Assembly: GCA_029559035.1 (NCBI GenBank)
Contig: JAKQCT010000017.1
Span: 1-64,000 of the forward strand
Length of the DNA: 64,000 bases
DNA from: Acidobacteriota bacterium
GTDB taxonomy: Bacteria; Acidobacteriota; UBA4820
Direction: 5' to 3'
Below, one piece after another: positions 1 to 13,857 of this stretch (position 1 is the first letter of the stretch; every line of letters starts with the position of its first letter). The notes under the pieces are model-generated. The model was not told the origin of the DNA. It did not search any database and saw only the letters and a list, made by a program, of their open reading frames with translations. Both the position numbers and the translations under genes were made by a program.

Positions 1-183
1 AGCTTCAAGCTCTTTAAGCCGGTGAAGCTGCTCCTTGTCCATACCGTGATACTTCTCCCGCCACCGGTGAACCGTCGCCTCTGATACCCCGTATTCACGG
101 CATACCTCCGCTATTGCCTTGCCGCCTTCCACTTCCCGAAGAATCCCAATTATCTGATCCTCCGTGTACCGTGTCTTCTTCAT
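1..183 (-). CDS. IS3-family transposase OrfA, N-terminal part (partial at window edge)
   Basis: Translating the reverse complement from the ATG at 183 gives a protein beginning MKKTRYTEDQIIGILREVEG, followed by a helix-turn-helix with SEATVHRWREKYHGMD and a leucine-rich start of a coiled coil. This is the standard opening of the short IS3-family OrfA, which binds the terminal inverted repeats and is usually joined to OrfB by programmed frameshifting. Only about 61 residues are present because the gene runs off the left edge. The terminal inverted repeat lies about 40 bp upstream of the start, as expected for this family. Confidence 0.88.
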   Translation of the reverse strand, partial: MKKTRYTEDQIIGILREVEGGKAIAEVCREYGVSEATVHRWREKYHGMDKEQLHRLKELEA

Positions 184-254
184 GATCCGATCCTCCTTCC
201 TAATTCTACAGGATCCTCTCATTCAAAGTGGTACAGTTTTTGGGGGGGAGGTCA
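1..254 (-). mobile_element. IS3-family insertion sequence, terminal part
   Basis: The window opens inside an IS3-family element. Its outer end is at about 254. On the minus strand the terminal sequence begins TGACCTCCCCCCCAAAAACT and continues to about 225, the TG-start, C-run and A-run layout typical of IS3/IS407-group inverted repeats. The start of its first transposase gene lies just inside. The other end and the second transposase frame are beyond the left edge. The element sits directly against a broken DUF1156 gene, so it, or a repeat beside it, disrupted that gene. Whether it is active cannot be judged from this fragment. Confidence 0.82.
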
Positions 255-302: not shown

Positions 303-395
303 TTAGGCATCCCCTTTCTGTTTCCTGCGAAGTGCCTCCTCGTTTATCGCATCGAGCGGCAACGCCACCTCGATAAGTTTCTTCTTGGTTATCAT
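303..395 (-). pseudogene. DUF1156-type DNA methyltransferase, N-terminal remnant
   Basis: The minus strand from the ATG at 395 reads MITKKKLIEVALPLDAINEE, then ALRRKQKGDA and a TAA at 303-305. The KKLIEVALPL-(D/E)-AIN stretch is the characteristic start of DUF1156 adenine-specific DNA methyltransferases, which are normally about 900-1000 residues long and often sit beside phage-defence helicases and ATPases. Only 30 codons remain before the frame enters repeat and IS sequence. The ATG overlaps the stop codon of the upstream ATPase (TAATG), so this was the third gene of a translationally coupled operon. It was too short for routine gene calling. The family call is from memory of the conserved N-terminus and is fairly secure. 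Confidence 0.72.
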
Positions 396-3300
396 TATCG
401 CCCATTCCTTTCGATTGCCAATCTATATTTTGCAGGAAATAGCTTTATTTCTCCATCATCAAGCATCTTCTGGAGCTTCGCCCCTCGAACCTCGACGGGG
501 TCATCTTTGGGTCCCATAAGCAGCAGGGAGTATTGTTCGGGTTCATTTTGCATCAGCCCCCACACGTCTGCTCCGATCTCGATAGGTTCATTTTCAAGGC
601 AATGGCGGAGTGGCAAAAAAGATCTAAGGAGATCGCCTGACCTATTCCTGAGTTCCCACGGAAAAAGTGAACCAGATACTTTACCAAGCCAATCTCCATC
701 AGGATGGAAATAGCGGTCTCCTCCATCATTCTTAAATCCATTCAATTTTGCGAAGATCTCGATCATGGAAAATCTTGGCTTTTTCTTGTGCTTGGGAGCA
801 CCTTCATCATCGAAATCCGATTGGTTCACCGATTCCTCTATAATTTCCTCTTCCTCCTGTTGGACCCCGTTTTGTTCCGGAGCGATCCTTGCTGGAATCT
901 CTTCAACGGGATTTGAAGAATCTTCTATTGCCACAGGAGGCTTCACGGCTGATAGAGCTGCCTCTTCAGTTGAGACAAGAGAAAAGTTTGCCTTCATGTA
1001 TTCCCGTATTTCCTCCGGGCGCCTCTCGAAGCTGTAATGTAGTGCCGCTTTGATATCATATCGGTCAAATACTTTGCCTATCTCTTCCGGGACTCTCTTC
1101 GCAAGTTTCCCTTTAGTCATCTTGCTGACGAGCAGTTCAGTGCCTATCCATGCCACATCAGCCTTTCGTGGCAAGCCAGCAGGTTTGCCATTGATATATG
1201 GTAATATCTCCAGAGTTCCAGTTTCGAACATTGCAGTTTCAGCCAGCACAGAAGCATGTTCTCTTAGTTGCTGTGTCGCTTCGTCCGTTTCCAACTTGAC
1301 CCTTCCCAATTCATGTCCTAAAGTTAATATCCATTCCTGTCCAACTTGATTTGTTTTCTCGACATCTTGGCTTAGCCTCTCTTCTATGAGGGTGCTGAGC
1401 CTCGGCAAGGATGAAAAGGGAGGAGCACCGCCTATTTCAGCTGAAAGGTTCTGGAAATCAGCCGTTTTCCTCTTGACTTCAGGGTGAAGGTTCTTCCACG
1501 CGATAAGCGTTTGCATTGTCAGGCTATAAGCCAGATCTTTTACCGGAACCCATTCGCCTTCAAGGTTAAGCCAGTGTCCCAACCCATCCCATACTTGTTT
1601 CGGGTGTCTCCCCAGCACTCCACGTACTCTCTTGAGATCACCTTCAACAACTTTTTCTGATGATGTCAGATCTTTTAGCCATTCCAATGCAAGTTCAACG
1701 GTTGGGCGCTCCGCCACACCTATTTTTCGCCAAAGGGATAAGTTGTTAACGGAATGCCTTATGACCTCGGCATCGGGAACATCCTCTTCGTTGGACGAGA
1801 TGAATACCGAGTTAATAGCCATCCATTCGTTTTTATGGGAAAGGATCAGCCGTTGCCACCTGAATGCACCTATTATCTTATCGAGATCTTCTGTCGAACA
1901 GGAATCCGCGAGCTTGTCCAATCGCCGATACCATTTGTCCACTTCTTCCAGGGGAGGACAATCAGACTGGGAAAGCGCGATCACGCGCTGGATAATCTTT
2001 TCAGGACCTGTCGGTGTCGATTGGACTCCGAGAATGTCCAACAATTCCCTGGAAGCGCTATGATCCCATCCCCCGTTCACGAAAGGTTCAACATCGATCA
2101 AGGATTCCGTTTCGGGTGTTCTCCTGAACAATTCGCTGGGCTTGTGCAGAAAACCCCTGGTGTCAGGAAGACATGGTAATTCACGGAAACGCCTGACCCA
2201 GGTCGCAAGTATTAATTTTTCTAATTTCACATCTTTAACGCCACCGGTCTTGTTTTCTTCTCTCACGATAATGGTAGATTTGTCCGCCCATAATAGCCTG
2301 CCAGCATATAGCATTTTCGCCACTATCATTTTCCAGATCTGAGGGTCTTCTTCAGCGGTCTTTTTCCAATGATCCCATAGACATGGATCGAAGTCCCAAT
2401 CGTTGAAAATAAATTTGGGTCTTACATAGTGAGACACGAACGACCCCGAATAGCCTTGATCATGCAACAAAGCCTTCAATTGCTGGGTATTGTAAGCGTA
2501 CTTGGGTTGCAAGCTGGTGGGTACGAATCCCTTCAATCCAGATCTGCCATTGGATATCCATTGCAGCCATTCCTCCCGTGAGCAGGATTTGAATTCATGC
2601 ATATAGTCATAGTGGAGGAGGAGCGATCCTTTTTTATCCTCAGGCAGGATAGTTTCCAAGGATCCATCGACATCAAACAGGACACCGCTCTCGATGGATT
2701 TTATGTCTTCATTGCGGGTGTAATAGCAAAAGCTTTTGCCGGTTTGTGCATCCAGTTTGGCTGCTATCTGGGCAAGTTGAATACATGTGTCCGCATTTAT
2801 TTCCTCATTTGAAAAGAAGTTTTTAGCCGCCTGCTCTATCACCTTGGTGACATCGCTGACATCGTTCAGTCCAACTTTATCTAGGATTTTTATCGCATCT
2901 TCAACTGAATGGTCCGTTTCCCCAGTATGCAGCCGCCGATGTTCTGAGAGAAAATTCAGCCAGTCCTGATCCAGCACCTTCAGGTGCTCTGACAATAAAT
3001 CCCAATCCTCTTTTGAATGGAGAGTCTTTTTTTCACCTAACCTTACAACTTCATTGGGAGGGTAAAGAAATTCACTATGAGTTACCGGGATGATTTTCAG
3101 CCAGTCTGTATTCACTTTGGAACGAAAGCTGTAAACCTCCGGAGCGATGTAAGACCACAATTTAACAAGCTGTTGCCAAGTATCGGGTTTGTGAACATGT
3201 TTTCTCTGAAGGACATCAAGAAGATTTCTCAATCCCACTTCTTCGATAAACTTCCATCGTAACAATTTTCCCCTGTCCGCAGATTCAACATGCTGGCAAA

Positions 3301-4543
3301 GAACTGGACGACACCTGTCATCAAGAAATGCAGACGCTTGTTTTGCCGACCAGATATCAAGGATGTGCTTTGGGATATAAATGCAATTATTGACTGAAAT
3401 CAGCATACCATCCTCTGCCAAAAGAAGGGATGATGAAGTTGTCCAGCGGGTAAATGCATTTTTTACCGCAGTAGAACAAATATTCTCCAGAGCGCCATCT
3501 TCCTTGGGTGGGTCGGGAAGTAATCCGTACGCCTTTGCCCTTTCTTTTGTGGATAAAGTAGTCTTTCCCAACCAGTCAAGCATTGCATACGCAGCCAAAA
3601 GACCGGTTCTTTTCAGCAGCCATCTGTTAGTGGGTGAAGTTTCAGGGCTTTTGATCCGTTCTCTGGCTGGATCCTGAATGAAAGGCGCGTTACAAGCAAA
3701 GGGTAGATCGGTTGACACACCCGTAGGAAGAACTACATAAAGCCTTCCCTGGGCATTAAGGACAATCTCAACTTTGCATGGTGGAAAGGATGTTTCTTCT
3801 CCAGTTCCAAGTAGTCTCTCTTGGCGTATTTCCTGCAACGCTTCCTCTGGGAACGCCTCTTCTTCAGACCGGACGACCAGGAATGGCTCCTCGTGCATCA
3901 GATTTAAAGCCATCCATTCACTTTTATCGATGGGACCTTTTCCCTGTGACCGCCAGCTTATTTCACTTCCTTGTATTTTAAGGCTTCTTATATTTTTAAA
4001 GAAGAGAAGGGAAACAGGGCTTTTATGCCACTCATAGAGATTCTTTTCCACTTCTTGTTGCCGTTCATAATCCGATATCTCTACCCATATAATGGTTTTT
4101 CCTGAGGTGTCACGCCAAGCTGGCGACCATTCAGGCAATGTAAATCTATTCTTATTAAAACTGACAGAGAGGGTGGGTGTGAAAACGACCACGTTATTCC
4201 CAAGGCTGAAAGTGCTTTTGAATCCTATTCCTCTGAATCCGATAGTATGAAGTGCTCTCTTGTTGGAATATCCGAAACGGCATAGAGATGTGAAATGTTC
4301 CTCAGTGAAATCCTCTCCGTTATGCTCGAAGGCGAATACTTTGTTATCTATTTGAACAGAAGCCTCGGTAGCACCAGCGTCATCGGCGTTCTGAAGAAGC
4401 TCAGACAAGACGTGCCTTGGGCTTTGCACTTGATTAAAAAGCTGGCGCCATGGTGCAGCAAGTTCCGGATCGCTTTCCAGTTGCTTCCACCTTTGAAGGG
4501 ATCTCTGGCGGATACTTTCAAAATATGGCGGCGGATATATCAT
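395..4543 (-). CDS. Sacsin-like GHKL (HSP90-type) ATPase, 1382 aa
   Basis: This large cytoplasmic protein has an N-terminal HSP90/sacsin-type ATP-binding fold. The N-box is LSELLQNADDAGA (residues 47-59), with the Glu that activates water and the Asn that binds Mg. The second box is an FEHNGEDFT loop (72-80). The glycine lid is TIGFRGIGFKSTF (100-112). The remaining roughly 1200 residues match no domain I can name. A Glu-rich linker near residues 1240-1280 precedes a basic C-terminal segment. The start overlaps the helicase stop by 4 bp (ATGA), so the two are translated together. Sacsin-like ATPases of this size next to DUF3883 helicases are seen in phage-defence islands, and that is the role I infer here. 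The substrate is unknown. Confidence 0.83.
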   Translation of the reverse strand: MIYPPPYFESIRQRSLQRWKQLESDPELAAPWRQLFNQVQSPRHVLSELLQNADDAGATEASVQIDNKVFAFEHNGEDFTEEHFTSLCRFGYSNKRALHTIGFRGIGFKSTFSLGNNVVVFTPTLSVSFNKNRFTLPEWSPAWRDTSGKTIIWVEISDYERQQEVEKNLYEWHKSPVSLLFFKNIRSLKIQGSEISWRSQGKGPIDKSEWMALNLMHEEPFLVVRSEEEAFPEEALQEIRQERLLGTGEETSFPPCKVEIVLNAQGRLYVVLPTGVSTDLPFACNAPFIQDPARERIKSPETSPTNRWLLKRTGLLAAYAMLDWLGKTTLSTKERAKAYGLLPDPPKEDGALENICSTAVKNAFTRWTTSSSLLLAEDGMLISVNNCIYIPKHILDIWSAKQASAFLDDRCRPVLCQHVESADRGKLLRWKFIEEVGLRNLLDVLQRKHVHKPDTWQQLVKLWSYIAPEVYSFRSKVNTDWLKIIPVTHSEFLYPPNEVVRLGEKKTLHSKEDWDLLSEHLKVLDQDWLNFLSEHRRLHTGETDHSVEDAIKILDKVGLNDVSDVTKVIEQAAKNFFSNEEINADTCIQLAQIAAKLDAQTGKSFCYYTRNEDIKSIESGVLFDVDGSLETILPEDKKGSLLLHYDYMHEFKSCSREEWLQWISNGRSGLKGFVPTSLQPKYAYNTQQLKALLHDQGYSGSFVSHYVRPKFIFNDWDFDPCLWDHWKKTAEEDPQIWKMIVAKMLYAGRLLWADKSTIIVREENKTGGVKDVKLEKLILATWVRRFRELPCLPDTRGFLHKPSELFRRTPETESLIDVEPFVNGGWDHSASRELLDILGVQSTPTGPEKIIQRVIALSQSDCPPLEEVDKWYRRLDKLADSCSTEDLDKIIGAFRWQRLILSHKNEWMAINSVFISSNEEDVPDAEVIRHSVNNLSLWRKIGVAERPTVELALEWLKDLTSSEKVVEGDLKRVRGVLGRHPKQVWDGLGHWLNLEGEWVPVKDLAYSLTMQTLIAWKNLHPEVKRKTADFQNLSAEIGGAPPFSSLPRLSTLIEERLSQDVEKTNQVGQEWILTLGHELGRVKLETDEATQQLREHASVLAETAMFETGTLEILPYINGKPAGLPRKADVAWIGTELLVSKMTKGKLAKRVPEEIGKVFDRYDIKAALHYSFERRPEEIREYMKANFSLVSTEEAALSAVKPPVAIEDSSNPVEEIPARIAPEQNGVQQEEEEIIEESVNQSDFDDEGAPKHKKKPRFSMIEIFAKLNGFKNDGGDRYFHPDGDWLGKVSGSLFPWELRNRSGDLLRSFLPLRHCLENEPIEIGADVWGLMQNEPEQYSLLLMGPKDDPVEVRGAKLQKMLDDGEIKLFPAKYRLAIERNGR

Positions 4544-7500
4544 CTTGGATATTCTGCTTTCTTTAGAAGCTCGGCAAAATCATAGTTTACACTCGTCACA
4601 CCAAAATCAGGCTCCCGTTTGAAGGGCTGCCTGATGTAATGAACTGTAGGATCCATATCTTCAAAAAACTGGACGATGGCAAGGATGAAGTTGTCAGGCT
4701 GATTTAAAGAGTACAGGACTTCGTTCTTGGTGACGGTCACGGTAGTCGCGCCACTTATCCTGCCTTTGACCTCGATAAAACGCAGCCTCCCTGTCTTGGG
4801 ATCCCTGCTTTCGATGTCATAACCGAGCTTATCTAATTCCCTGTCAACTGGCTCATATCCAAGCCTGCGCTCGGCTTCCATGACCATTTCCCTTGCTTTT
4901 GCTGCCGCAGCCTGGGTGTCAGGTGAATTGGCTTCTTTGATTTCGCTTTCTTTTCCTGTGATCTTTGCAAGTAGACCGGCAGAAACGACCACAAAGCCGC
5001 CAAGGACTACAGGGGGTCTCGAAGAGATTTGTTCCTCTCGGTCAAGCTCCTTTATCCGCTTATCAAGCCTTGCAGCAAGCTCGTTCGCCCGTCTTTGAGC
5101 TTCCTGTGAATTAATCTTTGCGTTTGTTTTACCAGCCTGTTCCTGATATTTAAGCTCTTGCGCTCGATGATCCCAGTAATTGATCTCCTTGGCTAGACGG
5201 TCTTTCACAGCCGCCCTCGCTTTCTTGATCCATTCAATGCGGTTGGTCATGACCTCATTGAGATGACCAGGTGCCACATTTGCGATTGCGTGCCCAAGCG
5301 CTTTGTTTTCAAGTTCCTTAGTGATCCACTTCAATTCCGGACAGGCTACAATTTCTTCAATGCTGGGTTCATCCTTCTTTAGAGGTCGATAATCGAGATA
5401 GGGGGCGTAATTGATGCCTTTGCAGCTTCCTGTCTCGTCCATTTCCACGAACAGAACTCTTCTTGAAATGACCCGTTGTTCTCCAGAAGGGGTAATGCTG
5501 GCGTCTTGAATGGCGTGCTCGATAGAGAAAAGGACACGGGCTTTATCGCTCCAATCGTTCTCGTCTACAAGGACCGTGCCTCTTCTCAACAGCTCCCTGT
5601 TGCGTTCAAGGGTAAGGTCTATCGTAGCATCAAGAAGAGGGTGCCCAGGGCATACAAAAGCTGCAAGGAGTTCTCCTGGCGGTGCTATCAGGTGTTTTTC
5701 AAAGGCGATTCTTTCATATTTTTGGAGGAGTGGAGCCGAAGTTCCCATGATCCTGTCAAGGTTGCGGAGCGATGCGGGTACATTTGTTATCTCATAGCGG
5801 CGTGGTTCGCGCTGGCTGGATTTGCCGCCAATCCTTTTGAACGCTTCCAGGAAGAACGACTCGACATAGAACGGCTGAAGTCTGCGAGCTTCGGCTCTGT
5901 CCATGTCTTCGCGGATCTTCGCGAGGCGGCTTTCGTCCAAGACATCGTGAACTAAGGCTTTTTCCTCGAAGAGGTCTTGAAGCTGCTTTTTGTCAAAGGC
6001 GTTTTCAACAACCATGTTAAGTTTGGCTCTCACTTCCGGTTTTTCGCCGTATCGGATAGCCTCTATCAGCAATTCGCGCAAGGGCTTACCTTCAAATTGC
6101 AGTTTGCCCAGAACATCAAAGACCTGTCCGCCTAGGTCTTCTCTTGCCTTCTCCAGCTTGTCGAGCAATTTCCTGTATACGTCACCTTCTCTAGTGCCGT
6201 CGGCAATCAAGTTCCAGAGATGGCATACCTCCGTCTGACCGATCCTGTGGATACGCCCAAACCGCTGCTCAATACGGTTCGGGTTCCAGGGCAGGTCATA
6301 GTTCACCATCAGATGCGCCCTCTGAAGGTTTATACCCTCTCCTGCGGCGTCTGTTGCGACAAGAACCCGCACATCTGGATCGTGAAGGAATGCCTCCTTC
6401 ATCTTCTGTCTTTCTTCTCGCCCCATGCCCCCGTGAATAGAAACGACCGCATCCTGTTTACCAAAGAGCGTCGTGAGTTTTTCTTTTAGGTAATTCAAGG
6501 TGTCCCGATGTTCAGTGAATACGACAAGCTTTTGACTGGGAGAAGCTTTAGGCTTGGGTATCTTGCCGCTTCCGTAGTGTGATGTCCTTTCAGCAGTAGA
6601 GGTGTCGATGCCTTGAGCCGTGAATATTTCCGTCTTGAAAATGTTGGACAATTCACACCATTTTCGGTCTTCCCCGCTTTTCCTGACCGCCAGTGCCAAA
6701 GCCTCAAGTCTTTTAAGGGTGGAGATCTCCTCCTTAAGCTCTTCCATTGTCCTTGCCGCGGTAGCCTGGTCAAGGACTTCCTCTTCTGCCTGCGCGACTT
6801 CATCGTCGGGGGCATCCTCAAGGTCGTCGATATCGTCCTGCTTTAATATTTCGTAGGAAGCGGAAGGCGCGAAGAATTTACCCGCTCGCTGAAGAATCTC
6901 CATTTCACTGAGACGGCTTTCAAGCCTTTCTTTTCTTCTCCTTAAGGACTGGTAGATGGCTTCTGGTGAAGATGCAAGCCTGCGCTGAAGGATGGTAAGC
7001 GCGAAGCCTACAGTGCCTGCCCGCTTGTCATCCTTTAAAGCTTCCGCACGGTTGAACTCTTCACGGACATAATCGGTGACATTCTTGTATAGGTCAGCCT
7101 CTGCTTCCGAAAGCTGGTAAGGAGCGGTGTAGGCTATCCTTTCAGGAAAAAGAGGCGTCCCGTCAAATTTGATCAGATCCTCTTTAATTGCACGCATCAT
7201 TAGATCCGAAACATCAACGGTATGAACTCCGTCTCTGAATTTGCCTTCGAACCGATCCCCGTCAAGGAGTGCCATAAATAATTGAAAATCTTCTTGTTTG
7301 CCATTGTGGGGTGTCGCTGTAAGTAAGAGTAAGTGTCTCGTCGTTCCCGACAGCAGTTTCCCCAGATTATATCTTTGAGTATATTTGACCTCACCGCCGA
7401 AGAAAGTAGCTGACATCTTATGGGCTTCATCTACAACGACGAGATCCCATGAAGCCGAAGGAGCCTGAAGTTTGGCTTGCACGCTTTCGTCTCGGGAGCA

Positions 7501-8124
7501 TTTATCCAAACGGGCGATAACAAGGTTGTTCTCGCCGAGCCAATTCCCCGTCCTGGCAGCCTCAAGCTTGTCGTTGGTCATGATCTCAAAGGGCAGATGG
7601 AACTTTTGATTCATTTCATCCTGCCACTGCTCGACAAGATTGCCCGGAGAAATGACAAGGCAGCGGCGTAGATCTCCCCTCATTATAAGTTCTTTGATGA
7701 GAAGCCCTGCCATTATAGTCTTCCCGCTTCCGGGATCCTGCGCCAGCAAATATCGAAGCGGTTGGCGAGGCAGCATAGCCTGATATACAGCCCTTATCTG
7801 GTGAGGCAGAGGATCCACGATGGATGTGTGGATTGCGAGGAGGGGATCGAATAAATATGCAAGACGGATACGATGAGCCTCGGAAACGAGCCTGAAAAGT
7901 TCTCCGTCACCGTCAAAGCTCCACGGTGCGCCCTGCTCAACGACTTCAATCCGAGCTTCATTATCGCGATAAAGAAGCTGATTCCCAGCCCTCCCAGAAG
8001 CATCCTTGAAGGTCAGCTCAAGCGCATCCGAGCCGAACCACTGCACGTTGATGACGGTAACAAGCCCGTCGGGAGTTATCCCTCGGACGCTTGCAAATGG
8101 TTTGAGGTCTTCAAGTTTCGCCAT
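4540..8124 (-). CDS. SNF2/DEAD-like superfamily 2 helicase with C-terminal DUF3883 (PD-(D/E)XK-like) domain, 1194 aa
   Basis: The protein is a superfamily 2 double-stranded DNA translocase. Walker A is DPGSGKTIMAG (about 130-140). Motif II is VVDEAHKMSA (about 230). Motif III is LLLTATPHNG. The second RecA domain carries VLVATDAAGEGINLQ and the arginine-finger segment RIEQRFGRIHRIGQ. The C-terminal part (about 1090-1150) reads GYDIESRDP, then RFIEVKGR and VTVTKNE, the DUF3883 pattern with the Asp and Glu-x-Lys layout of a PD-(D/E)XK nuclease. Closest known neighbours are DrmD-like and other defence-island helicases. It is the first gene of the operon, with a TATAAT box at 8182-8187. Nuclease activity is inferred, not shown. 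Confidence 0.88.
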   Translation of the reverse strand: MAKLEDLKPFASVRGITPDGLVTVINVQWFGSDALELTFKDASGRAGNQLLYRDNEARIEVVEQGAPWSFDGDGELFRLVSEAHRIRLAYLFDPLLAIHTSIVDPLPHQIRAVYQAMLPRQPLRYLLAQDPGSGKTIMAGLLIKELIMRGDLRRCLVISPGNLVEQWQDEMNQKFHLPFEIMTNDKLEAARTGNWLGENNLVIARLDKCSRDESVQAKLQAPSASWDLVVVDEAHKMSATFFGGEVKYTQRYNLGKLLSGTTRHLLLLTATPHNGKQEDFQLFMALLDGDRFEGKFRDGVHTVDVSDLMMRAIKEDLIKFDGTPLFPERIAYTAPYQLSEAEADLYKNVTDYVREEFNRAEALKDDKRAGTVGFALTILQRRLASSPEAIYQSLRRRKERLESRLSEMEILQRAGKFFAPSASYEILKQDDIDDLEDAPDDEVAQAEEEVLDQATAARTMEELKEEISTLKRLEALALAVRKSGEDRKWCELSNIFKTEIFTAQGIDTSTAERTSHYGSGKIPKPKASPSQKLVVFTEHRDTLNYLKEKLTTLFGKQDAVVSIHGGMGREERQKMKEAFLHDPDVRVLVATDAAGEGINLQRAHLMVNYDLPWNPNRIEQRFGRIHRIGQTEVCHLWNLIADGTREGDVYRKLLDKLEKAREDLGGQVFDVLGKLQFEGKPLRELLIEAIRYGEKPEVRAKLNMVVENAFDKKQLQDLFEEKALVHDVLDESRLAKIREDMDRAEARRLQPFYVESFFLEAFKRIGGKSSQREPRRYEITNVPASLRNLDRIMGTSAPLLQKYERIAFEKHLIAPPGELLAAFVCPGHPLLDATIDLTLERNRELLRRGTVLVDENDWSDKARVLFSIEHAIQDASITPSGEQRVISRRVLFVEMDETGSCKGINYAPYLDYRPLKKDEPSIEEIVACPELKWITKELENKALGHAIANVAPGHLNEVMTNRIEWIKKARAAVKDRLAKEINYWDHRAQELKYQEQAGKTNAKINSQEAQRRANELAARLDKRIKELDREEQISSRPPVVLGGFVVVSAGLLAKITGKESEIKEANSPDTQAAAAKAREMVMEAERRLGYEPVDRELDKLGYDIESRDPKTGRLRFIEVKGRISGATTVTVTKNEVLYSLNQPDNFILAIVQFFEDMDPTVHYIRQPFKREPDFGVTSVNYDFAELLKKAEYPR

Positions 8125-8377: not shown

Positions 8378-9181
8378 TTACCCCGCTTTGGCGACCTCCT
8401 GGGCGGGTTCTGCCGCAGTCGGGGTCTGCTTTGCTTCCTTGGTCTTGATCTCCACATTGTCGGCTGTAAGGGCGACAAGGACTACTGCGCCGGGGGTTTC
8501 GGTGGTCTCTTCGACGACCTTCCTTGCGCTTGAAGTGGGCATGATACCCTTGAACCTCTCGGCGATGAAGGGCTCCTTGTCCATGTATTGAAGGTAGCCG
8601 GCGGTGCTTATTTCGCGAAGGGACTGCTCGATCCTGTGCTGGACGATATTCTTCTGCGTCGTAAGGTTCTTCTTGTCTTTGACGCCCATGTCCTGCGTTT
8701 CGCGGGCCGTCCGCAGGGTGTCGAGAAGCTCCCTGCCCCTTGCGATGTCGGCGTCGAGGATGCCGCAAGCCCTTATTGCGTCTGGGTTGTCGCTTGCCGC
8801 CTTGAGAATGGCCTCGATGGCGCTGATAACGCTGGCCGAACGGAACGGATAGAACCGCGAGCCTACGCCCACAGCCTTGGGAAGGCCGGTGTTGGGGGCC
8901 CTCTTCTTGACGGCGACGCGGATCGCGGTTACCCACATGGCGCCTGTAAGGGCTTTTTCCGTCTCGGTCCCGGTGAGGCCCTTCACCTTGATGTTGACGG
9001 CGGGCCTTTCGGTGTAGAGGGATTCGAGCTGTTTGATGTCGAAGACAAGACGGTCGAGGGTGGCTTCGGGAAGGCGGGGCGCAAGCTCTCTTTGCCTGCC
9101 TTCGATGAGGGTCAGGGTTTCCCTTCCAAGCTGGATCGCCTGGGAGGCGGTGAGTTTACAAGTGAGATTTATTTTAATCAT
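8378..9181 (-). CDS. Conserved-looking hypothetical protein, 267 aa
   Basis: I do not recognise this family. The product starts MIKINLTCKLTASQAIQLGR, is mostly helical and hydrophilic, and has no signal peptide or membrane segment. The last 40 residues are rich in Thr, Glu, Ala and Lys and look disordered. Residues about 75-115 (KGLTGTETEKALTGAMWV onward) are the most ordered-looking part. The start is supported by an AAGGAGA ribosome-binding site 11 bp upstream, and a strong terminator follows the gene. Codon use is GC-rich like the core genome and unlike the neighbouring defence operon. It is transcribed alone. Confidence 0.72.
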   Translation of the reverse strand: MIKINLTCKLTASQAIQLGRETLTLIEGRQRELAPRLPEATLDRLVFDIKQLESLYTERPAVNIKVKGLTGTETEKALTGAMWVTAIRVAVKKRAPNTGLPKAVGVGSRFYPFRSASVISAIEAILKAASDNPDAIRACGILDADIARGRELLDTLRTARETQDMGVKDKKNLTTQKNIVQHRIEQSLREISTAGYLQYMDKEPFIAERFKGIMPTSSARKVVEETTETPGAVVLVALTADNVEIKTKEAKQTPTAAEPAQEVAKAG

Positions 9182-9317
9182 GGTACAAATTTCTCCTTAA
9201 TCCGTAACTTTTGAGGTCACGGACAAAAGTGTTTCTTGTTAAAACCTTTGCCTGTATTGGATCTTGGAACTCTTTGAAAGGAGGAGCATGAAGAATCCCG
9301 TATCCCGCACAGGCGAT

Positions 9318-9896
9318 TTATTTCAGTTGTGTATCAAGACGAAACAGGGGGGGCGGGCGCCTCATCAAAGGCTTGAAGCGGTATATGTCCTTTATTATCT
9401 TTATGTTGGCATGTTTTACGGCGATCTGAAGCGGAACCGGCATGTCTTGAAACAAAAGCGCAAGACCATTTTTCGAAACCGCCAGAGCCTTTTCCGGAAG
9501 CGCCGCGGGATTTTTCGCGACCGCCACATAGGTTTGCAGAGCGTCCCAAATGGATATTGATTCGTCACCGGTATAAAACGAAAGCGCCAGGGCTTCCACG
9601 GTGACCGCCTGGGTGTTTTCGGGAATGTTACAACCTTCAAGCGAATCTGTGCGGACCTTTCTGCGGAAGAGGCGGCCCACTCCCTGAAAGAGCCACTCGC
9701 TGCCGAGCACAAGCAGGCTTTTCTTTGATTCGGGGAAGGGGGGTGGCGAGGATGTCTCTATAAGATAGTGACTGTGGAAAAAATCTGGTTGTGCGGTCCT
9801 GCTTTCGTTATAATTATTGGGCGAAGAAATAATGTGCCGCGCCTGCTGGCGCTGTGGGGGAGGAGCCGGATTGTGACGACCGCGTAACAAATTCAA
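9318..9896 (-). CDS. Doubtful hypothetical protein with heptad repeats
   Basis: This 192-codon frame opens with TTG and has no clear ribosome-binding site. The N-terminal third is low-complexity (Pro, Gln, Arg) and may be untranslated. From about residue 60 it becomes protein-like (LVLGSEWLFQGVGRLFRRKV), with a 7-residue repeat near 130-155 (AVAKNPA, ALPEKAL, AVSKNGL) that could form an amphipathic helix. The same DNA also holds a plus-strand frame (9288-9560) with a good AAGGAGGAG site but an Arg/Lys-rich product. The true coding strand is uncertain, and this may be a degraded gene. Confidence 0.33.
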   Translation of the reverse strand: MNLLRGRHNPAPPPQRQQARHIISSPNNYNESRTAQPDFFHSHYLIETSSPPPFPESKKSLLVLGSEWLFQGVGRLFRRKVRTDSLEGCNIPENTQAVTVEALALSFYTGDESISIWDALQTYVAVAKNPAALPEKALAVSKNGLALLFQDMPVPLQIAVKHANIKIIKDIYRFKPLMRRPPPLFRLDTQLK

Positions 9897-10171
9897 TATG
9901 CCTCCTTGGCATATCTGCTTTGCGCATCACTTTTCCTCCTCCTTCGTGCATCCCCACTTCAGCGCTTTCACCACAACCGATCCTTAAGCGCCAACCAAAT
10001 TGTAACATATAGTTGTGGAAAAGTCAAGACCCCTATTACATGTGGAGTCATTTATTGTCACGATGCCGTTCTGGCATAGGACCTACGGGTATTCTTTATG
10101 GCTTTAAGTGCGCGCCGGGCCAGGCCATGCATTATGAATTTGGGCGAAGAGGGGAGCGGCCCTATCTGTCA

Positions 10172-10374: not shown

Positions 10375-11301
10375 TCATCTGTCGCCTTTCAACCTTTCCA
10401 GTATCTTGAAAGCATCCTTGTCGAACCTTGAGAAGGCGAACCACTTTTTCCCCAGGTCTTTGAGCGAGGCGCCTATATAGTATACGGTTTTGTCGTCTAT
10501 TATCAGGAACCTGTCGTGGGAAAGGCCGAATTCCTTTAGCTTTATCTTGCGGTATTGTTGGCCGTATTTCTCGGTGTCAAGCGCAAGCTGTTTCGAGATC
10601 GTTTTGGTGTAGACGGTTATCTCCGCCTTCCTGCCGGCCTTCGAGAGCAGCGTGAGGACGCTCTCATCAACGTAATTGTCGATCAGGACGATGGAATTTT
10701 TAGCGCTTCGTATCAGATCAGAGGCGAATTTATATGCGTCGAATACCTGGCCGTCAAAAAAGATTCCCTGCTTCGGAACAGCATCCTTACTTTCGATGGC
10801 AGCAAGCACTTTGTCCATCTTTATTTCTGTTTCAAGCTGTTTAAGCTCAAGAGTGTCAAGCCTTTGAAAGACCTGGGCGTTTGAAAGTATGAATTTCCGC
10901 ATCGCCACAAAAGCTTTGATGATCTGAATGCTCATCTGAACGGCTGTTTCGCTTTTAAGGACGGCCGAAAGCATCGCCACGCCTTGCTCGGTGAAGACTC
11001 TCGGCAGGTACTTCGTATGCTTCCCTTTTTTACTCTCTAAGGTCACATTCTGTGACCATACAGCATCTTTCTCTAAGGTCACAAATTGTGACCTTAGAGA
11101 TTCGTACTCGGTCTTCGTGAGCTGGAAGCTGAACTCCAGAGGGAATCTTTCAAGGTTCCTTTTAACCGCCTGGTTCAGGACTTTGGTCTCCACTCCGAAA
11201 AGTGCGGCAAGGTCGCTGTCCAGCATCACATGGGCATTTCGGACGGTGCTGATGCGGCTTTGAATATCGCTTTTCGTTAATGCCAAGGATTTGTCGGCCA
11301 T
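10375..11301 (-). CDS. ORF6N-domain DNA-binding protein with C-terminal PLD-like domain, 308 aa
   Basis: Residues about 12-135 form an ORF6N domain, a phage-related DNA-binding module: the MLDSDLAALFGVETKVLNQA start, then LERFPLEFSFQLT, then YLPRVFTEQGVAML. A short coiled coil near 140-165 links to a phospholipase D-like domain with FFDGQVFDAYKFASDLI, VLIDNYVD and HDRFLIIDD. In the last motif Arg takes the usual HxK lysine position, which in my recollection is common for this fused family. Function is undefined; such genes are scattered in accessory DNA. Three nearly identical palindromes, one 25 bp upstream of the start and two inside the gene, suggest autoregulation. The gene stands alone. 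Confidence 0.88.
   Translation of the reverse strand: MADKSLALTKSDIQSRISTVRNAHVMLDSDLAALFGVETKVLNQAVKRNLERFPLEFSFQLTKTEYESLRSQFVTLEKDAVWSQNVTLESKKGKHTKYLPRVFTEQGVAMLSAVLKSETAVQMSIQIIKAFVAMRKFILSNAQVFQRLDTLELKQLETEIKMDKVLAAIESKDAVPKQGIFFDGQVFDAYKFASDLIRSAKNSIVLIDNYVDESVLTLLSKAGRKAEITVYTKTISKQLALDTEKYGQQYRKIKLKEFGLSHDRFLIIDDKTVYYIGASLKDLGKKWFAFSRFDKDAFKILERLKGDR
11035..11057. promoter_or_regulatory. Intragenic palindrome 3
   Basis: The sequence ctctaa-ggtcacattctgtgacc repeats the left flank and both arms of palindrome 2, with start points 36 bp apart. It encodes the Gln-Asn-Val-Thr-Leu-Glu stretch, so the protein repeat and the DNA repeat coincide. Confidence 0.6.
11071..11100. promoter_or_regulatory. 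Intragenic palindrome 2 (extended)
   Basis: The sequence tctaaggtcac-aaatt-gtgaccttaga (11072-11098) is a 27-bp near-perfect palindrome inside the ORF6N coding region. Its core ggtcacaaattgtgacc matches the upstream operator candidate in both arms. It encodes the Gln-Phe-Val-Thr-Leu stretch of the protein. Confidence 0.6.
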
Positions 11302-13043: not shown

Positions 13044-13607
13044 TCATTTTTCGAGGGTCTTTTTCAGGGTGTTTTCGAACGTTTCGAGGTATCTTTTGTC
13101 CTCGAAGCTCTGGTCAAACGCGGCCAGCCATTTTCTTATGTGGCCAAGATCAAGGTCTTTGTTCCTCAGAATGACCGACTTGACATCGTCGAGATCGATG
13201 ATCCGCCCCGCGATGACCTTGAGGACGATGAGGTCTTCGGGAGAAGCGAAGCTGGCATCACGGCCCAGTATCTTTCGAGTCTTTGCTCTCTTGATCGCTT
13301 CCGCTTCAAAAAGAGAGTTGGAGAAAATGAAGTCCACTCTGACGGACGAGGCTTCATCGAGGACGGGTAGGACCATTGTCCGGCCCACGAAATCTTTGGG
13401 GTCTTTCGTGAGGGGAACGAGGCCGGTCTCCGCGACGATGCCGAGCATGTCGGGGAGGCGGTCGGCGTCGACACCAAGAGAGATGTCTATGTCCCTTGTT
13501 ATGCGGGGCTGGCCGTGAACGAGAACGGCCTGGCCGCCGATGATGGCGTAAGGGATGCCGTGGTTCTTGAGCGCGAGGGCGACCCGCGCGATTATTTCTT
13601 CGAACAT
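13044..13607 (-). CDS. AbiEii-type nucleotidyltransferase, 187 aa
   Basis: The N-terminal half is a minimal nucleotidyltransferase: IIGGQAVLVHG, then ITRDIDISLG, giving the GG and D-x-D motifs. A further Asp in VRVDFIF may be the third catalytic acid. The product matches the AbiEii / DUF6036-like group, whose members act as toxins in type IV toxin-antitoxin or abortive infection modules, though many single members have unproven function. It overlaps the preceding 68-aa gene by 16 bp, so the two are coupled. The pair sits between spacer arrays, a common place for mobile addiction modules. Confidence 0.82.
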   Translation of the reverse strand: MFEEIIARVALALKNHGIPYAIIGGQAVLVHGQPRITRDIDISLGVDADRLPDMLGIVAETGLVPLTKDPKDFVGRTMVLPVLDEASSVRVDFIFSNSLFEAEAIKRAKTRKILGRDASFASPEDLIVLKVIAGRIIDLDDVKSVILRNKDLDLGHIRKWLAAFDQSFEDKRYLETFENTLKKTLEK

Positions 13608-13798
13608 CCGTGCAGGACCCTGGCAAGTTCTATTTTTTCTTCAATGCCTTCGAGGGGATCGGCGGGGGGATAAACACCTAGCGCTATCGCTTCCCTGTAC
13701 ATCGATTCGAGAAGCTTCATCGCGGCCTCGTAGGAAAGCGGATTTGAGGCAATCAGATCGTCCTCGAATTTTCGTAAAAGCTCGCCGTCCTTTATCAT
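13592..13798 (-). CDS. Small partner of the AbiEii-type gene, 68 aa
   Basis: This small acidic, helical protein begins MIKDGELLRKFEDDLIASNP and overlaps the nucleotidyltransferase start by 16 bp. Such short genes commonly precede this kind of nucleotidyltransferase and may be the antitoxin or a dimerising partner, but the family is not known to me. I chose the ATG at 13798 because it has a GAGAGA purine run just upstream; an extended frame to 13849 would cross the likely -10 box. It has no DNA-binding motif that I can see. Confidence 0.68.
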   Translation of the reverse strand: MIKDGELLRKFEDDLIASNPLSYEAAMKLLESMYREAIALGVYPPADPLEGIEEKIELARVLHGCSKK

Positions 13799-13828
13799 CC
13801 GATCTCTCTCATCTTCTTCACCATCAAT

Positions 13829-13857
13829 AATATAGCACACGCCTGCCAATCGGGCAA
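13829..13857 (-). promoter_or_regulatory. Candidate sigma-70 promoter of the AbiEii pair
   Basis: The minus strand has TATATT (13829-13834) and TTGCCC (13852-13857) separated by 17 bp. The segment CTATATTATTGA around the -10 is repeated in the MntA/HepT promoter, suggesting that the two toxin-type modules share promoter design. Confidence 0.5.

Follow-up and report, generated by a model that had tools for sequence, protein, structure and literature searches.

Which defence system do the first genes of an Acidobacteriota contig belong to, when a helicase gene and that of a very large ATPase are followed by only the beginning of a methylase gene, and is what remains of the system still active? 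The question is raised by positions 303 to 8124 of a 64,000-nucleotide stretch (assembly GCA_029559035.1, contig JAKQCT010000017.1, positions 1 to 64,000), called the window hereafter. The locus is a truncated copy of the system named Hma, or Type-1 DUF499-centred BREX-related system: a relic of the operon and not a complete system. It probably constitutes the 5′ half of an operon of four genes (hmaA, the gene of the sacsin-like GHKL ATPase, hmaB and hmaC), the surviving pair of which would be inactive or decaying rather than self-toxic. From the start of the operon to the contig end, the features are:

4540–8124, minus strand: hmaA, 1194 amino acids, SNF2-type helicase with a C-terminal NOV_C/DUF3883 PD-(D/E)XK-like nuclease
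395–4543, minus strand: sacsin-like GHKL ATPase gene, 1382 amino acids, between hmaA and hmaB, matching SACS/HATPase_c_3, NF047352 and TmtA
303–395, minus strand: fragment of hmaB (DUF1156 N6-adenine methylase), first 30 codons, then a stop at 305–303
255–304, no strand assigned: REP-like element (GGGGTC...GACCCC), abutting the hmaB fragment, with repeat copies elsewhere in the assembly
1–254, minus strand: end of an IS3-like insertion sequence (IS) element and start of its transposase orfA; the contig breaks within the element

The open reading frames (ORFs) of hmaA and of the sacsin-like protein overlap by 4 bp (4540–4543), and the latter overlaps the hmaB fragment by 1 bp (TAA at 397–395, ATG at 395–393), to the base as stated in a preliminary description made from the DNA letters only. 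Base 1 of the window is base 1 of its contig (C88), and the assembly (G000) is 95% complete in 99 contigs.

Assignment to Hma

The helicase carries the assignment. The PADLOC model of HmaA (PDLC00659) matches its residues 1-1192 with 1643.5 bits, and Pfam identifies SNF2, Helicase_C and a C-terminal NOV_C (DUF3883) domain, the latter with 75.9 bits for a cut-off of 22.1. This is the SNF2 helicase fused to a NOV_C/DUF3883 nuclease by which HmaA is defined, and its motifs are kept: Walker A DPGSGKT, DEAH, TATPHNG, QRFGRIHRIGQ and GYDIES...FIEVKG. The preliminary description had recognised the SNF2 and DUF3883 parts and proposed an anti-phage locus. Both points hold, and a check for inactivated GHKL or helicase residues found the catalytic motifs intact in both large proteins.

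Hma was originally described as a helicase-methylase-ATPase operon, with three genes only in the accessible part of that description (Payne et al. 2021, PMC8565338). It has been renamed Type-1 DUF499-centred BREX-related system and, with 2446 taxa, ranks among the predicted defence systems of widest distribution (PMC12839542). Its DUF1156 methylase, HmaB, is reduced to 30 codons in the window, and its DUF499 AAA+ ATPase, HmaC, is missing from the window assembly. Both are found in relatives, intact four-gene operons occurring for instance in Mesorhizobium (L036) and Pararhodobacter (L038): directly downstream of the sacsin-like gene of locus L038, PADLOC gives 983 bits for HmaB and 1059 bits for HmaC; Pfam recognises DUF1156 in the HmaB of relatives; and in intact relatives HmaC, encoded after hmaB, is a HEPN-DUF499 AAA+ ATPase. 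The window locus thus resembles Hma by the same HmaA, at full length and with its NOV_C nuclease, and by sacsin-bearing relatives that carry HmaB and HmaC in order. It differs by the extra sacsin-like GHKL ATPase between hmaA and hmaB, and by the lack of HmaC and nearly all of HmaB, which this copy has lost or which are absent from its assembly. To note, another locus, L055, possesses hmaA with neither hmaB nor hmaC nearby (10 kb downstream of hmaA, where the contig goes on), and may be an orphan HmaA.

These neighbourhoods modify the preliminary description, which had anticipated DUF1156 together with DUF499, DUF3780 or PLD genes: DUF1156 and DUF499 genes do recur, whereas DUF3780 and PLD genes are not what follows. 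DUF3780 and PLD (HKD) proteins are instead partners in Type-2 systems (PMC12839542). Similarly, its grouping of helicase, ATPase and methylase into one module stands for the methylase, which is HmaB, but not for the ATPase, which is accessory, and it omitted the core gene hmaC.

Class 1 DISARM was considered and rejected. Its DrmD is a related SNF2 helicase (394 bits with PADLOC), but DrmD reaches 371 bits against an NCBIfam cut-off of 610, the HmaA model scores four times higher, and it is HmaB and HmaC, not DISARM partners, that follow in relatives.

A sacsin-type GHKL ATPase in the operon

The 1382-residue protein is a sacsin-type GHKL ATPase, as proposed before. Pfam detects SACS (35 bits, cut-off 32.8) and HATPase_c_3 (26.3 bits, cut-off 25), and NCBIfam NF047352 matches with 74.6 bits for a cut-off of 50. 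The N-terminal ATPase domain harbors the GHKL motifs and keeps the residues invariant among relatives: QVQSPRH, ELLQNADDA, HNG, CRFG.SNKR, GFRG.GFKS, LPTGV and QDPAR. In the AlphaFold (AF2) model, the N-terminal half (predicted local distance difference test, pLDDT, of 81) matches Hsp90, TRAP1 and MutL with E about 1e-7; similarity to MORC3 is weak (E = 3e-4). The C-terminal half (pLDDT 78) is well predicted in parts, and its model finds no significant match in the PDB, the best being a Holliday-junction resolvase fold (E = 0.47). A nuclease in this half was considered and rejected: in addition to the PDB result, Pfam has no match there, and hhalign aligns the region to the NOV_C domain of HmaA no better than to a reversed profile.

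Recurrence beside hmaA

Eighty bacterial and archaeal HmaA loci were gathered, the sample being restricted to HmaA proteins that share about 50% or more identity with that of the window, and their neighbours were classified with profiles built for this analysis. A relative of the window GHKL protein is found in 10 of them (two near-identical), usually straight after hmaA and before hmaB, and the start/stop overlaps between hmaA and the sacsin-like gene are conserved in many loci. The same gene order is observed on a conjugative Bradyrhizobium plasmid and on one IMG/VR viral contig; Hma-sacsin operons are also carried by plasmids.

The association also holds, on stronger evidence, in the reverse direction, when the GHKL protein is searched for regardless of Hma in about 1,100 sampled genomes. 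The window's phylum (396 genomes) yields four full-length relatives (G258, G140, G301 and, split over two overlapping frames, G004). The class of G397, in which G397 itself was the chosen centre and is left out of the count, yields G590 and two deleted remnants (G481 and G480), and the class of G403 yields G890 and G1046. All seven full-length relatives and both remnants adjoin hmaA; G140 is the genome of locus L034 and G590 carries the plasmid locus L109, neither being counted twice. Those more distant sacsin proteins of this search that were checked lie outside hmaA neighbourhoods. In the phylum sample, hmaA occurs in 25 of the 396 genomes, which include all 5 sacsin carriers (hypergeometric P = 7e-7, adjacency uncounted).

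The sacsin-like ATPase is an accessory and not a core member of Hma, a swappable partner that recurs across many phyla. The main text of PMC12839542, taken apart from its supplements, makes no mention of sacsin, GHKL, Hsp90, MORC or HATPase. The parent system is known; neither its dedicated and mobile GHKL partner nor the cargo slot presented below appears to have been described in the accessible literature. As a side observation, the Hma-sacsin operon of the conjugative Bradyrhizobium plasmid (L110, 1-9061) is preceded by genes for a WYL-domain regulator, a patatin phospholipase and Mov34/MPN proteins, which suggests a CBASS neighbour.

Gain, loss or exchange of the accessory gene

How the sacsin-like gene relates to its operon over time can be read from the phylogenies. 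On a tree of 88 HmaA sequences, its presence needs 11 changes, at least 8 of which are forced by well-supported branches, and close sisters differ: L015 is devoid of the gene, L018 possesses it. The sacsin and HmaA trees are discordant (Mantel r = 0.13, a value reached in 512 of 2000 permutations), and terminal branches are longer in the sacsin tree, with a median of 0.77 as compared to 0.21 for HmaA. From these label changes, discordant trees and long end branches it follows that the gene is fast-changing and has been gained, lost or exchanged repeatedly.

The place that it occupies is open to other genes as well. The hmaA-hmaB interval exceeds 450 bp in 63 of the 71 loci having both genes and holds a same-strand frame of at least 150 amino acids in 56; for hmaB-hmaC, the corresponding counts are 20 and 13 out of 57. 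Sampled contents of the slot include Schlafen AlbA_2 with HATPase_c_4, GmrSD, dynamin, STAND, AAA_21, PIN, Fic, HD and AbiJ. Auxiliary nucleases and Schlafen-histidine-kinase proteins have been reported near or inside such loci (PMC12839542). The behaviour of the sacsin-like gene is thus that of a mobile accessory, dedicated to Hma and housed in an hmaA-hmaB cargo slot. Cargo can also stack: L103, L106 and L028 carry further large genes between the sacsin-like gene and hmaB, of GmrSD type in L028.

A slot of this kind raises another reading, namely that the ATPase is an independent defence gene parked in it and working alone, in the manner of Tiamat. Tiamat is a single-gene system. Its TmtA is likewise a large protein that begins with a GHKL/sacsin-type ATPase; the 1382-residue protein is recognised by nine TmtA models, and TmtA is its best PADLOC match (194 bits); the many unrelated defence-type genes of the slot and the disagreement of the two trees point the same way. 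Membership of Tiamat was nevertheless rejected: the match is partial, in two stretches of which the best covers 40-464 of the 1382 residues, mainly the N-terminal ATPase region, and the window family always belongs to multi-gene Hma operons. A parked system that works alone is possible but rather unlikely, as the search of about 1,100 genomes yielded no full-length relative away from Hma operons and as the start/stop overlaps with hmaA are conserved. A dedicated accessory of Hma is preferred.

Truncation of hmaB

The third frame encodes 30 residues, MITKKKLIEVALPLDAINEEALRRKQKGDA, and starts at 395 within the TAA stop of the GHKL ORF. Taken alone, it is too short for a hidden Markov model search, which returned no match. 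Its first 18 residues match the starts of intact HmaB/DUF1156 methylases, MITKKKLIEVALPLDAIN aligning for instance with MNYKKKLIEVALPLEAIN, which bears out the DUF1156 start proposed in the preliminary description. The hmaB sequence ends at the REP-like repeat, about 28 further partial copies of which are dispersed in the assembly, ahead of the IS3-like element, whose terminus, TGACCTCCCCCC, lies at 230–254. A 98% identical copy of this element terminates contig C31, and another, carrying a 297-residue orfB-like reading frame, terminates contig C51. No matching target-site duplication was found in the flanks on C88, C31 and C51, so that the missing side is not assignable. On the assembled strand hmaB is truncated in any case, since it stops at the repeat, before the IS.

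The IS copies at the ends of C31 and C51 fit the way in which repeats usually break assemblies. The truncation might be an assembly artefact, the operon running on into unassembled sequence that holds hmaB and hmaC intact: C88 halts inside an element found at three contig ends, and a REP-like repeat sits at the junction. This is an unlikely explanation, however, as hmaB already stops before the IS and as searches of the whole assembly for DUF1156, full-length HmaB and DUF499 were all empty, no piece of hmaB or hmaC being present on any other contig. A genuine truncation is retained.

Is the surviving pair active?

Of 415 highly conserved positions, HmaA departs from the consensus at 16, for a median of 4, and ranks 9 of 83 in this respect, which hints mildly at relaxed constraint. 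The locus is taken to have been truncated recently and to have probably lost its function, rather than to be an old relic. Several observations weigh against the overall assessment: the two large ORFs are open over 2576 uninterrupted codons, which is not expected in a long-dead locus; in a 95% complete genome of 99 contigs, with a contig ending in a multi-copy IS, hmaB and hmaC could exist unassembled; and the adjacency to hmaA could be due to a hotspot of defence genes instead of a common machine.

The preliminary description held that loss of the methylase should be harmful if the rest still cuts DNA. It need not be self-toxic, since phage restriction by BREX generally requires all components, according to the accessible part of PMC13326643. 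The paradox of autoimmunity is thereby weakened, as it is by the existence of further copies in which hmaB is broken. In the IMG/VR viral contig L131 (12202-17278), an IS1595-type transposon interrupts hmaB beside intact hmaA and sacsin-like genes, which shows that the truncated state recurs; this transposon carries a 235-residue passenger gene. In L126 (from G481), positions 8527-9999 encode an in-frame 490-residue version of the sacsin-like protein, in which residues 4-94 are joined to the C-terminal part from about 1018, followed by a truncated hmaB of 537 residues. The short version is either a product of decay or a minimal form.

Such copies bring up a further reading, in which HmaA and the sacsin-like ATPase are a working two-gene defence and the ATPase, not methylation, discriminates self from non-self. 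Both ORFs are indeed intact with their catalytic motifs, and L131 keeps the same pair beside its split hmaB. This is unlikely, considering that nearly every sacsin locus whose downstream sequence is long enough keeps hmaB and hmaC, that HmaA has accumulated excess changes at conserved positions, and that L126, also with a truncated hmaB, has a gutted sacsin gene. A recently truncated, probably inactive locus remains the preferred interpretation. The identities and order of the genes, their recurrence, the mobility and the truncation are results of this analysis, and the biochemical roles and the loss of activity are inferred from them.

Possible role of the ATPase

In intact copies, according to roles known or predicted in the literature, HmaB would mark self DNA by adenine methylation, HmaC (HEPN-AAA+) would scaffold target recognition, and HmaA would translocate on, then cut, unmarked DNA. 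The sacsin-like protein may dimerise through its GHKL/Hsp90-type module upon ATP binding, while its large, fast-evolving remainder may capture a DNA or protein cue, this capture gating or licensing the HmaA nuclease. Hsp90-type ATPases undergo clamp closure upon ATP binding. The role we favor is that of a sensor or clamp, gated by ATP, which would license HmaA, based on the Hsp90-type fold and on two precedents: in restriction systems, DNA looping has been proposed for GHKL proteins that accompany SF2 helicases and methylases (PMC2292703), and the GHKL domain of VcSduA is proposed to control its nuclease (PMC12137116). A bolder version, frankly a long shot, is that the swapped sacsin/Hsp90-type ATPase would be an ATP-gated licensing clamp for BREX-related restriction that, with HmaA, discriminates self without the methylase; it would explain the copies that keep hmaA and the sacsin-like gene while hmaB is broken.

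Neither precedent is identical to the window protein. The prokaryotic MORC/paraMORC proteins (Iyer 2008, PMC2292703) are also GHKL ATPases in operons with an SF2 helicase and DNA methylases, but sacsin and DUF499 are unmentioned there and the window protein resembles MORC3 only weakly. VcSduA (GHKL-Shedu, PMC12137116) also combines a GHKL ATPase with a PD-(D/E)xK nuclease that it is proposed to control in phage defence, but as a single protein fused to a Shedu nuclease, whereas the window nuclease resides in a separate SNF2 helicase.

Sacsin/Hsp90-type ATPases are now linked to a restriction-type system and its hmaA-hmaB cargo slot is mapped. This family of large ATPases was found only with Hma, between whose lineages it moves, and its evolution is faster than that of the core helicase. 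How Hma senses invaders is not established, and the sacsin-like gene provides a defined deletion target to address gating of the HmaA nuclease.

Neighbouring genes

Two further features of the window lie upstream of the operon, both on the minus strand. About 2 kb upstream of hmaA, 10375–11301 encodes an ORF6N protein with a C-terminal PLD-like stretch, which strongly matches the PADLOC candidate defence family PDC-S05 (397 bits). At 13044–13849, a nucleotidyltransferase (DUF6036/DUF2204) and a small partner ORF (13592–13849) resemble an MNT-type toxin-antitoxin pair.

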